A stretch of DNA of 64,000 nucleotides from Spartobacteria bacterium (GCA_003167365.1 PMTM01000003.1:97645-161644); one strand, 5' to 3'. Shown: positions 41,868 through 46,822, counted from the stretch's first letter. Notes: generated by a model not told the origin, from the sequence alone. Made by a program: numbers and translations.

Positions 41868-43391
41868 CTATTCGATCTCGTTGACTGCGCTGATGAAATC
41901 ACCAAAATCCTTGCCATTACGCGCAGCGTGATTGAGCGCTTCAAGACGCGCATCGAGCACGGCTTCGGGCAAAATGACACGACGCGATTCCGTCCCCGTG
42001 CCAAAGACGATTTCGTCCCATTGCAGAGAGGTGATGTGATCGTTAAACCTCGCGACGGAGCGGCCACGAAAAAAGGCGCGCGTCGTCTCCGGCGGATTGA
42101 AGATCGAATTCTTGATTTCGTCTTCGCTGACGATGTGGCGAATCGATCCTTGACGCACGAGTTCGTAGTACAGGCCGCGATCCACATCGACATTGTGATA
42201 TTCCAGATCGATCGATTGCAGCCAGGGATCGCTCCAAGAAAGATTTTCCTCTTCCTGCAACGCGCTGAGCAGAGATTTTTTCGCAACCCAATCGACGCGG
42301 TCGCGCGTCAAAGTTACATCTCGTTCGAGATCGTTCAGAACCTTTTCCCACTCGCGTAGAATCCATGGTCGATCTTCGCTGCCGGTTTCGTTGTCGATCT
42401 TGGCAGCGGCTTTCAGGTAAATGCGTTGCACATCGATCGTGGAAATTTTTCGTCCGTCCTTTAGCTCGATGATCCAATCGTAAGTTTGGTCGCGACTAAT
42501 CGATTTGTTCGCATCGACGGCCTGCGCGATTTCGAGCTGCGGTGCTTGACCCCGCTCGATCAAATCGAGGACGAGAGCCGTGGTGCCAATCTTCATTGCC
42601 GTCGCCCACTCGCTCATATTTGAGTCTCCCAGGATGACATGAAACCGCCGGTAACGGCTGGCATCGGCATGCGGTTCGTCGCGCGTGTTCACAATCGGGC
42701 GGCAATTCATCGTGTCGATGCTTACGAGCACGCTGAAAAAATCCGCGCGCTGCGAAATTTGATAGATGCCGGGCTGACCAGCGGCGCTCTCGGCTTCAAT
42801 GCCCATCTTGCCCGCGCCGGCAAAAATTTGGCGCGTGATTAGAAACGGGAGAATGCCGGCGACGATTCGATCCCACGGAACATCGCGACGCATGAGGTAA
42901 TTGTCGTGGCAACCATAACTGTGTCCGAAGAAGTCGGTATTGTTCTTGTAGAGACGAACTTCCTGTCCAGCCTTCAACTTCTCGTTCCGGCGACGCGCGC
43001 ACTCTGCAAGGATGCGCTCGCCGCCTTTGTCTTGCGCAACCATCTGCCGAATTGTGGTGCACTCCGGCGTGGAATATTCAGGATGCGCGTGATCGTTATA
43101 AAAGCGCGCGCCATTGGAGAGAACAAGATCGCTTTTGATTTCCTCAAAAGTCAGCGGCCGATTCTTGTCGATCTCGTAGTAAGCCGATTCGTCCGTATCC
43201 TGACGCAACGTCGCCGCGCGAAAACCACGCGCATCGAGGTGAGGATCTTCCAGCGCGTAATCCCATTTCATGTGCGCGCCGTGCTCGGTGTAACACCGGA
43301 CGAGCTCGATCGACTCCGCCACCACATCGACGTTCTCCACCCCATTGACCGTGATCCCGTATTCCGTCTCGAGCCCAACCACCCGTTTCAT
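41868..43391 (-). CDS. dop: Pup deamidase/depupylase
   Basis: Dop removes Pup from tagged proteins and deamidates Pup-Gln to Pup-Glu. Of the PafA/Dop pair, this is Dop: it has GLETEYGI (metal Glu8, Glu10), WDYALEDPHLDARGF, an insertion loop of about 35 residues before NGARFYNDHAHPEYSTPEC (catalytic Asp100 in DHAHPEYS; PafA has DVGSHPEYAT), and LYKNNTDFFGHSYGCHDNYLM. It also has IINTRDEPHAD-like VNTRDEPHADASRYRR and FHVILGDSNMSEWA. The end reads FNPPETTRAFFRGRSVARFNDHI...WDEIVFG, again Dop-like. 507 residues is normal. pup, pafA and prcA/B are not in the window. Confidence 0.9.
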   Translation of the reverse strand: MKRVVGLETEYGITVNGVENVDVVAESIELVRCYTEHGAHMKWDYALEDPHLDARGFRAATLRQDTDESAYYEIDKNRPLTFEEIKSDLVLSNGARFYNDHAHPEYSTPECTTIRQMVAQDKGGERILAECARRRNEKLKAGQEVRLYKNNTDFFGHSYGCHDNYLMRRDVPWDRIVAGILPFLITRQIFAGAGKMGIEAESAAGQPGIYQISQRADFFSVLVSIDTMNCRPIVNTRDEPHADASRYRRFHVILGDSNMSEWATAMKIGTTALVLDLIERGQAPQLEIAQAVDANKSISRDQTYDWIIELKDGRKISTIDVQRIYLKAAAKIDNETGSEDRPWILREWEKVLNDLERDVTLTRDRVDWVAKKSLLSALQEEENLSWSDPWLQSIDLEYHNVDVDRGLYYELVRQGSIRHIVSEDEIKNSIFNPPETTRAFFRGRSVARFNDHITSLQWDEIVFGTGTESRRVILPEAVLDARLEALNHAARNGKDFGDFISAVNEIE

Positions 43392-43439
43392 CTTCCTTCA
43401 AGATAGTGTAATACTTCCGCGCGTCGAAACGGAATAGCC

Positions 43440-44191
43440 ATGCACATTGATCTCTACGCTACCTGTTGGAACGAGGAACGAATGATTCCGTTCTTTCTTC
43501 GGCACTATGAGCCTTTGGTGGATCGAATCGTGATTTTTGACGACGGTTCAAACGATCATTCGCTGGAATTGTTGAGAGCGAGCCGCAAAGTGGAACTGCG
43601 CCGGCTCCCGTCCGGGCTTTCGTCGATTCTCATGCACATGGAGGAGATGAATCGTTGCTGGAAGGAAAGCCGGGGCCGGGCCGATTGGGTGATTATCGCC
43701 GATCCGGATGAGCACTTTACCATCCACGCTTTCGCGAATATTTGGAACGCTGTAAGGCTGAGGATGTAACAATTCTGAATCCCGTCGGCGTGAACATGAT
43801 TAGCCCGCTTTTCCCGCCGCCCGACGCCGTTCTTTCCGAAACGATCCGGCGCGGTGTTCGCTCGTTTTGGCTCGATAAGCTGGCTGTATTCGATCCGAAT
43901 GCGATCGAGGAAATCAATTACACTCCGGGCCGACACCTAGCCGCGCCGGCTGGGCGAGCGATTTTCCCGCCCAAACGGGAAGTGAAGCTGCTCCATTACA
44001 AGCAGCTTGGGCTGGATTACTTGCTCTCGCGTTCAAATGAACTGCGACACCGCAGGACCGAGTACGATCGAGAACGCGGATGGGGTCTTCACGATTACAG
44101 GTCTGCCGGCGAAATTGAGCGCGACTTCAAAACGGTGCTGGGCGATGCGCAGGATATTTCCATGATCGGAAAACTTCCGGCCACGCCTTGA
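43440..44191 (+). pseudogene. frameshifted glycosyltransferase family 2 protein
   Basis: The first frame reads MHIDLYATCWNEERMIPFFLRHY...DRIVIFDDGSNDHSLELL...WVIIADPDEHF, a GT2-like nucleotide-sugar domain with DDGS and DPDEHF, then falls into unrelated sequence and stops at 43769. The +1 frame continues as YHPRFREYLERCKAEDVTILNPVGVNMISPLFPPPDAV...KREVKLLHYKQLGLDYL. Adding one T to the TTT at 43716-43718 rejoins them into one normal protein of about 250 residues. Either a real frameshift or a homopolymer error. It is divergent from dop. Confidence 0.8.
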
Positions 44192-45094
44192 TCAGCGGAG
44201 ATTATAAAATTCCACCAAGGCAATTCCGGTGGTGTTGTTCTTACCACGAACAATGGCCGTGTAAGCGCCGGGAGGTAAGATGGCGAAGATCGCCGGTTCA
44301 CGATCGTCAGAAGGTGCGAGACCGTTATCGAGGATTGCCTGTTGATTGCCTTGCTTCCAATCGTCGTTCGAATCAACGAGCGTGCCGTCCTGATTGTGCA
44401 ACTCGAGAACGGGATCTTGCATCGCGTTTTGAATGCCAAATGCACCGAGCGATGGACCGAGCGCTCTCGCTATGACGACGCTCACTCCGCCGTTTCCGCC
44501 ACCCAAAATCGCCCCGCCGATGAGCAGGTTATCGCCCAGATCGACAAATCCTCGCGCGCTCACGTTGGCAAGGCGCGCGTTAGCATTTAGATCGAGATCG
44601 TAGACCTCGAGAAGAACAATTCCCACGCTGCCTCCGGCGCCGCGCGCGATCGCCGTATAATCACCGGGCGCCAGCGTAGCCATAATCGCGGATTCGCGAT
44701 CGTCGGCCGGCGCAAGGTTCGTCGCCACGATTTGCGCTTGCTGCGTATCTTTCCAATTGTCGTTTGTCGCGATGATCGCGCCGGTTTGATCATGCAATTC
44801 AAGCGTGGGATCCGACAACGCGTCCGACACGCCGTATGATGTGAGCGATGGACCGAGCGCGCGGATGATCAAGTTCTTTGAATCGGTGCCGGTGATGATA
44901 AAACCGACGATTAAATTGTTCGCACCCGTTCCCGTGTAAAGACGGGAGGAAATATTCAACAACTGCCCAAACGGCTTGATATCCTGCGCTTTTGCCAAGT
45001 GAACAGACAACGCGATTACAAGCAATCCACGGGTGATCGCGGCCTTGATCTTCAAACTGGGCAGACGCCTCACAACTACAGGCGCGTATCGCAC
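44192..45094 (-). CDS. secreted two-repeat protein (NISSRL...DDRES family)
   Basis: After a signal region (RGLLVIALSVHLAKA) come two halves of about 120 residues with the same pattern. The first is LLNISSRLYTGTGANNLIVGFIITG, LIIRALGPSLTSYGVSDALSDPTLELHDQTG, IATNDNWKDTQQAQIVATNLAPADDRESAIMATLAPGDYTAIARG. The second runs ANVSARGFVDLGDNLLIGGAI, ARALGPSLGAFGI, DSNDDWKQGNQQAI, LAPSDDREPAIFAILPPGAYTAIVRG. This repeat is abundant in exported Verrucomicrobia proteins, often as a C-terminal part of larger ones; here it forms the whole protein. Function unknown. It lies between mpa and dop. Confidence 0.8.
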   Translation of the reverse strand: MRYAPVVVRRLPSLKIKAAITRGLLVIALSVHLAKAQDIKPFGQLLNISSRLYTGTGANNLIVGFIITGTDSKNLIIRALGPSLTSYGVSDALSDPTLELHDQTGAIIATNDNWKDTQQAQIVATNLAPADDRESAIMATLAPGDYTAIARGAGGSVGIVLLEVYDLDLNANARLANVSARGFVDLGDNLLIGGAILGGGNGGVSVVIARALGPSLGAFGIQNAMQDPVLELHNQDGTLVDSNDDWKQGNQQAILDNGLAPSDDREPAIFAILPPGAYTAIVRGKNNTTGIALVEFYNLR

Positions 45095-45136
45095 CCGCGC
45101 CGCAGTGTCAAAACAAAACGACGATTGCAGCGGAAT

Positions 45137-46822
45137 TCAGATGACGCCGCTGGAGCTTGATCGCGCATCAACGCCGAGCGGGCGCACCGGCGCGATTTTG
45201 ACAACGTTCTCCGGCTCGTAGTCGATCAACTTGAGCCAGTCCTCCGTGACATCGCTGGCCGGAAAGATGTCGTTTTCAGCGTACTCGGCGTTGAACGCGA
45301 GCCGCAGATCGTTTTCGCTAATGCCCTCGGCAAAGCCGGTAGAAATTGCGCGCTTGATCGCCATTGCTTTCGCGCGCTCGACGATCGACGCGATGATCGC
45401 GCCGCTGATGAGATCGCTCCGATAAGCAATTTCCTTCCGGCCGCTGCGCAACGTCACTTCGAGGAATTTGTTTTCTTCGCGGCGCGCAAACTGCCATTCC
45501 ACAAAGCGCTCGATCAAACGAGCAATGGCCTCGCCGATATGGTCGGCTTCCTTAGCGAGCACCCCGTCGTAAGGAAGATCGTCCGTGAGATAAATTCGAT
45601 AAATATCCCGCGCTCCGGCGCGATTCGGTCGATTGACTTTGATCTTCCGGTCGATCCGGCCCGGCCGCAAAATCGCGGGGTCGATCAAGTCGGCACGATT
45701 GGAAGCGAGGATAATGACGACGTCGTTGAGCGAATCGATTCCGTCCATCTCGGAGCAGAACATCGGAACAAGCGTCGAAAGAATATTCGAGTAACGCGAA
45801 GCGCGACGCGTGCCGAGAATCGATTCCGCCTCGTCGATGAAAACGAAAGGCATCAAGCCTTCGCGCCGTTTTTCGCGCGCCGTCGCAAAAACTTCGCGCA
45901 CTTGTCGTTCCGATTCGCCCACCCACATATTCAAAATCTCCGGGCCTTTAATGTGCATGAAATACTCGCGCATCTCCGCGCCGGTTTTTTCGCGAAGTTG
46001 CTTCGTTAAATTGTATGCGGTCGCTTTGCCGATGAGCGTCTTGCCGCAACCGGGCGGACCGTAGAGCAGGAAACCTTTCGGCGTCGCATGGCGGAATTTT
46101 TGGAAAAGATCGACATGCAAAATCGGGAGTTCAATCGCATCCTTGATCGCCTGAATCGCGGCTTCCTGTCCACCGATTCTTTCCCAAGGCAACTCGGGCA
46201 CTTCATCAAGATAATGCTCGTGCGATTTGGCGCTCGAAAGCATCTCAAGCGCCATCCGGTAATTCGGATCGACCCGCACCTCGTCTCCTGATTTCAATGC
46301 GGATCCGGCAAGGTCGGAGGAGCGTTCCAAGACGATCGACTGCGTCCCATGTTCCGAACCGACGCGCAAACGATCTTCCCCAATCACCTCAGCAATCTTC
46401 GTTACCGGGCCAGCCGTTTCAAAACCGAGATCGCCTACAATTACATAGGCCTCGTTCACAAGAACGCGCGTTCCCTTCTTCAGTTTCGCGAGCGGAATGC
46501 GCGGATCGACGTTGCAATAATAGTCGGCGCCACCCACCACGATATGCGCAGTGTCGCGTGACGTCGCTCCGAGAAATGTGCCGATGCGATTCGCCGGCGA
46601 AGTCACTTTCTTGATGACCTCCTCGAGCTTGCCGATCATGCGGCCAGCCTCAGTGATTGTTTCTTCCTGGTCGGCGATGCTCGATCTCAGATCGAGCAGA
46701 TCGCGACGCATGGGGTCGCCCGGTGGAAGGGACGCGAGCACGCGATCGAGTCGATCCAGAATTGAAAGCTCATGTGGACCGTCTTCCAGGTCCTCGAATC
46801 GTTCTTCGCGCTCGTCGCTCAT
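45137..46822 (-). CDS. mpa: ARC/Mpa-type proteasome-associated AAA ATPase
   Basis: A 561-residue hexameric unfoldase of the bacterial ARC/Mpa class. It has an N-terminal helical coiled coil (about 40-75, LLDLRSSIADQEETITEAGRMIGKLEEVI), tandem OB domains (about 78-200), and an AAA domain with Walker A GPPGCGKT (255-262), pore loop IKGPEILNMWVGE and Walker B FVFIDE (326-331). The sensor region ILASNRADLIDPAILRPGRIDRKI follows, then a C-terminal helical part. The protein ends PLGVDARSSSSGVI and lacks the terminal QYL motif that docks actinobacterial Mpa to the 20S proteasome. It is on the same strand as dop, 1.7 kb apart. Confidence 0.92.
   Translation of the reverse strand: MSDEREERFEDLEDGPHELSILDRLDRVLASLPPGDPMRRDLLDLRSSIADQEETITEAGRMIGKLEEVIKKVTSPANRIGTFLGATSRDTAHIVVGGADYYCNVDPRIPLAKLKKGTRVLVNEAYVIVGDLGFETAGPVTKIAEVIGEDRLRVGSEHGTQSIVLERSSDLAGSALKSGDEVRVDPNYRMALEMLSSAKSHEHYLDEVPELPWERIGGQEAAIQAIKDAIELPILHVDLFQKFRHATPKGFLLYGPPGCGKTLIGKATAYNLTKQLREKTGAEMREYFMHIKGPEILNMWVGESERQVREVFATAREKRREGLMPFVFIDEAESILGTRRASRYSNILSTLVPMFCSEMDGIDSLNDVVIILASNRADLIDPAILRPGRIDRKIKVNRPNRAGARDIYRIYLTDDLPYDGVLAKEADHIGEAIARLIERFVEWQFARREENKFLEVTLRSGRKEIAYRSDLISGAIIASIVERAKAMAIKRAISTGFAEGISENDLRLAFNAEYAENDIFPASDVTEDWLKLIDYEPENVVKIAPVRPLGVDARSSSSGVI

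Follow-up and report, generated by a model that had tools for sequence, protein, structure and literature searches.

The dop and arc genes found in the window, the 64,000-nucleotide stretch of DNA that was analysed (G000:C9:97645-161644, from an assembly of 3.13 Mb in 24 contigs), most probably (about 0.9) belong to a complete UBact system of six genes that is dispersed over three loci: dop and arc on contig C9, UBact, prcB and prcA on C1, and pafA on C14. UBact-proteasome systems of Gram-negative bacteria were first described in the literature under the name UBact; judged against the open literature, the novelty here is that of a dispersed variant of this known system, present across a family of soil Verrucomicrobiota.

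Regarding dop, the gene spans positions 41868 to 43391 on the minus strand, and its product of 507 residues is predicted from its sequence to be a Pup/UBact deamidase-depupylase. The protein scored 548.6 bits with PF03136 and 492.7 bits with TIGR03688, the Dop equivalog, just passing the cut-off of 492.3, while it stayed well short of the cut-off of the PafA model (391.6 versus 551.3 bits), and the Dop model is therefore preferred; its nearest solved structures were those of Dop (4b0r and 5lrt, E 4.4e-122). The recognition of a Dop-type enzyme in the first-pass annotation is thus borne out by both profiles and by the structure matches. A predicted Dop loop, WDY...DPHLDARGF, is placed between the first strand and the active site, and the putative catalytic Asp is that of DHAHPEYS, in the motif DHAHPEYSTPE; W43, D44, Y45, D53, R55, G56 and D100 are conserved in at least 98% of 83 relatives. 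On sequence comparison, the WDY of this type of loop corresponds to the residues of the Dop loop that matter in Mycobacterium tuberculosis (PMC9556782).

As for arc (or mpa), positions 45137 to 46822 of the minus strand encode a proteasomal AAA ATPase of 561 residues with the C-terminus SSSSGVI. Its AAA domain (PF00004) and two proteasomal-ATPase OB domains (PF17758 and PF16450) were all above their cut-offs, and its nearest solved structure was that of Mpa (5kwa, E 5.9e-103); an ARC/Mpa ATPase on the strand of dop had been proposed before, and both the domains and the shared minus strand agree with it. The match to TIGR03689 (462.7 bits, E 1.6e-138) is below the curated cut-off of 504.75, a value that no ARC of the family or of the Methylacidiphilaceae type reached either.

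Two genes separate arc from dop, a repeat protein and a frameshifted glycosyltransferase, as already noticed in the first pass. The former (44192 to 45094, minus strand) encodes 300 residues in two similar halves, with a weak match to the DVUA0089 family (NF038127, 34.6 bits), and it is probably outside the UBact system; relatives such as L118 and L125 do not have it at this place, and homologues occur near dop/arc in other positions in L119, L128, L129 and L130. The positions of these homologues vary across genomes, as if the gene were locally mobile. The latter (43440 to 44191, plus strand) is of the GT2 type, with PF13704 in its first frame; the frame changes near window positions 43715-43719, and the shift was established with an intact, single-frame paralogue of the same genome (C1:314727), which matches both frames consecutively (query 20-112, then 112-259). 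It is either a pseudogene or a sequencing error, and no part of the system.

The other four components were located by whole-genome profile searches. Exactly two PF03136 members are encoded in the genome, Dop and a PafA of 473 residues (C14:52732-54039); PafA aligns to PafA and Dop structures alike, and its Asp70 and the flanking motif are kept in at least 98% of 37 sequences. The two members of the proteasome family, prcB and prcA, are side by side at C1:358458-359569: Thr1, Asp17 and Lys33 of PrcB are invariant in all 124 sequences compared, and PrcA, slightly under the Pfam cut-off (21.3 versus 22.4 bits), matched PrcA structures at E 2.8e-14. The tag itself, UBact, is encoded at G000:C1:359731-359889 and scored 80 bits with the NCBIfam model NF033388 (cut-off 35); its sequence, MPERIQRPPD...KRYRQRTGQ, ends in TGQ, and its gene opens an overlapping UBact-prcB-prcA operon, in which the stop of UBact overlaps with the start of prcB, and prcB and prcA share four bases. 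A putative N-acetylmuramoyl-L-alanine amidase gene follows prcA at a distance of ∼12 bp (L005 5301-6107, G000:C1), and it is kept in relatives including L116 and L121. The median dN/dS of the six genes was between 0.10 and 0.32; synonymous sites are near saturation, so these values support purifying selection only weakly.

The first-pass annotation had also suggested that the pathway may survive in a reduced form, with depupylation and unfolding alone, a reading that is refuted by the whole-genome searches. It drew on the window, which contains no pafA, no prcBA and, in the profile searches, no Pup-like gene, and it could draw on the Pfam Pup model, PF05639, which had no match in the whole genome at E <= 10. 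However, PF05639 does not extend to UBact, so that its blank result would wrongly suggest absence and NF033388 is required, and UBact, PafA, PrcB and PrcA are all encoded on other contigs of this genome, and their active-site residues are conserved; with its full set of six genes, and with conservation of those catalytic residues that were examined, the system is not a reduced one. Actinobacterial pupylation without a proteasome is a model for a reduced system only, and here the proteasome genes are present. Of the whole-genome search that the annotation had recommended, the part concerning PafA and PrcA/B succeeded, while the tag proved to be a UBact ending in TGQ and not a Pup ending in GGE or GGQ; likewise, the complete pup-prcBA-pafA locus that it had set against a reduced form exists in substance, at two loci instead of one. 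It was right that no pup-like gene is near dop and arc, but a search for frames ending in GGE/GGQ is blind to a UBact ending in TGQ, and any scan that saw dop and mpa and then sought such frames would miscall the whole pathway as incomplete.

The presence and completeness of the genes, their catalytic residues, their order and their phylogenetic distribution were all observed, while each biochemical step in the working proposed here is modelled on the mycobacterial system. By this analogy, Dop would deamidate the C-terminal Gln of UBact to Glu; PafA, encoded at another locus, would then join this Glu to lysines of the substrate; finally, ARC would capture the tag, unfold the substrate and pass it on into the 20S core formed by PrcBA. 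The tagging may also be reversible by Dop. The C-terminal residue of UBact is Gln in 59 and Glu in 27 of 86 distinct sequences; the window's species has Gln, and the deamidase role of Dop would be needed there.

The break-up of the cluster, proposed in the first pass, holds for this genome, with its three loci, and recurs throughout the family. Among 49 family genomes, mostly draft MAGs, a PF03136 member was found in all 49, ARC in 47 and UBact in 46, and no contig carried pafA together with UBact, pafA together with dop/arc, or UBact together with dop/arc; the tag gene is therefore not adjacent to a PafA/Dop gene in one neighbourhood, and three loci are found both here and family-wide. By contrast, arc and dop share a contig in 35 genomes (36 contig pairs, as G019 gives two) and are always on the same strand, with a gap below 250 bp in 17, of 1.8 kb in the window's genome and of up to 9.3 kb elsewhere. 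In 12 family genomes they are on different contigs, and some of these cases are contig breaks. As most relatives are draft MAGs, contig breaks could also account for some of the separations between the three loci in the family, but not for those in G000 and G026.

It is very unlikely that the separation as a whole is an artefact of assembly or binning, even though the genome is a draft of 24 contigs and most of its relatives are MAGs: the three loci are deep within long contigs (C9, 371 kb; C1, 846 kb; C14, 110 kb) and contig ends therefore do not explain it, and independent assemblies from 12 genera again show the genes in three separate places. Where the surroundings were read, the local neighbours are also constant, with an ABC transporter and the amidase around UBact-prcBA, PCD and DegP-like genes around pafA, and glycogen phosphorylase beside dop. 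Most probably, pafA and the arc-dop pair left the UBact-prcBA operon early in a Chthoniobacterales-type lineage, and two unrelated genes later widened the arc-dop gap in the window's genome. A natural ARC-Dop fusion was considered for a single frame of 1025 residues in one relative (L216 4286-7363, G036:C66); assembly collapse is the likelier explanation, because the frame, which occurs in one MAG only, loses at its junction the tail of ARC together with the metal/ATP motif of Dop (ETEYG).

Several groups beyond the family keep the compact arrangement. Of 288 genomes sampled from the phylum, only nine have the system, the window's genome included, and in six of these (group f8, outside this order) arc, dop, UBact and pafA follow in that order within ∼7 kb, with prcB and prcA between UBact and pafA in the loci read. 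The compact order arc-dop-UBact-prcB-prcA-pafA is present in loci of the Methylacidiphilaceae and Limisphaerales types and of Poribacteria, and the actinobacterial order, read directly in Nonomuraea, is arc, dop, Pup ending in GGE, prcB, prcA and pafA; since it is also actinobacterial, the compact order is likely the ancestral state. (The Nonomuraea replicon, NZ_LT559118.1 or L218, is filed as a plasmid; with 11.85 Mb, it is surely the chromosome.) Two arrangements are likely intermediates: in G301, from another family of the same order, arc-dop is on one contig and UBact-prcB-prcA on another, with pafA ∼4 kb from prcA and in opposite orientation, and in L208 pafA is ∼6 kb from UBact. Pup has been described as invariably adjoining a PafA-family gene (PMC2588565), and the gene order of the Pup pathway as rigidly conserved (PMC3511204); the dispersed family, with its likely intermediates, is a clear and real exception to both.

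When 84,980 species genomes were scanned with a UBact alignment, at least 80 loci were obtained. Among the 80 listed, UBact is immediately preceded by dop and immediately followed by pafA in 26, and these include Methylacidimicrobium, Pedosphaera- and Limisphaerales-type MAGs and Poribacteria; another 24, which include Chthoniobacterales, Spartobacteria and Candidatus Udaeobacter MAGs, lack both genes over at least 2 kb on the upstream side and 2.5 kb on the downstream side. A quick PrcB+PrcA tree was rooted on Poribacteria; some of its branches are long. With the exceptions of L138, L151 and L195, the rows without dop at the UBact locus form one 39-row clade on this tree (SH-aLRT 98). By parsimony, dop and pafA each need three changes on it; one of those of pafA is a separate loss from the cluster, in a Methylacidiphilales-type clade of seven rows. 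In L143, L146, L150, L152, L153, L154 and L156, all of this type, dop-UBact-prcB-prcA are together, as is arc where the contig reaches it, and no pafA is beside the cluster, an independent partial break-up. L138, L136, L141 and L179 have UBact-prcB with no recognizable prcA or pafA downstream, and their PrcA may be too divergent or absent. Some record titles conflict with a verrucomicrobial placement of UBact-prcB on the tree, namely L138, L169 and L171 (Akkermansia muciniphila), L146 (Betaproteobacteria), L153 (Bacteroidetes), and L141 and L179 (Proteobacteria); these are probably mislabelled MAGs.

Compared with known UBact systems (NF033388), the one described here shares the tag family (80 bits), the six components and the UBact-prcB-prcA operon order, and it differs in that dop with arc, and pafA, are detached from the operon, while the six genes are contiguous in the Methylacidiphilaceae- and Limisphaerales-type relatives. 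With the actinobacterial Pup system (Mpa, Dop, Pup, PrcBA and PafA) it shares homologous enzymes and ATPase, the WDY of the Dop loop, a terminal G[EQ] in the tag and Thr1 of PrcB. It departs from that system in the dispersed cluster, in a tag that ends in RTG[QE] instead of GGE/GGQ, and in an ATPase that ends in [VI][VI] instead of GQYL.

This last difference concerns the contact between ATPase and core, which in mycobacteria involves the C-terminal GQYL of Mpa and its penultimate Tyr (PMC8755798). The tails of 72 distinct UBact-type ARCs were compared, that of the window (45137-46822) and those of relatives among L037-L066, L104-L110 and L131-L206. GQYL was found in none of the 72; instead, they end in two small residues that are nearly always aliphatic: the last one is Ile or Val in all of them, and the penultimate one is V/I in 67 and one of T, M and A in the remaining five. 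The entropy of the last two positions is 0.83 and 1.23 bits, versus 2.6-3.6 bits at positions -5 to -12, and the linker before the end varies in length. With the same pipeline, both actinobacterial ARCs with readable ends terminate in GQYL, and no comparable conserved end was found at the C-termini of Dop, PafA or PrcA.

On the side of the receptor, the PrcA lysine aligned with M. tuberculosis Lys52, which we take to be in the tail-binding pocket, is invariant (77/77). Two residues further on, at position 54, Ser is replaced by Phe in 76 of 77 sequences, and Nonomuraea also has Ser; in this comparison, the M. tuberculosis region was taken from a printed alignment. The role of a pocket lysine has been described (PMC12288473). 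From these alignments, we give even odds to the proposal that UBact-type ARCs would dock not through GQYL/HbYX but through two small aliphatic residues, [VI][VI]-COOH, at the end of a linker that varies, and that the pocket of the alpha ring would have changed with them (Ser to Phe), as if an aromatic ring had shifted from the tail of the ATPase to its receptor. No earlier report of a [VI][VI] tail in ARC was found in the open literature searched.

As GQYL is lacking in all 72 tails, an ARC that stays undocked is conceivable. Actinobacteria that have lost prcBA are known to pupylate without a proteasome (PMC8223512), and in the same way Dop and ARC might serve a proteasome-independent branch of tagging and reversal without degradation, of which [VI][VI] would be the mark. 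This is improbable, given that UBact and the conserved prcBA are in one operon, that Thr1 of PrcB and the pocket lysine of PrcA are invariant, and that the [VI][VI] tail is conserved and not decaying, being present also where all genes are still clustered. The altered tail raises a testable question: how does a bacterial proteasomal ATPase devoid of GQYL make contact with its core, in bacteria that abound in soil? As for Candidatus Udaeobacter, no paper on its proteasomes was found in the open literature, where UBact is mentioned only in passing; a MAG of this taxon is among the nearest named relatives of the window's genome by PrcBA.
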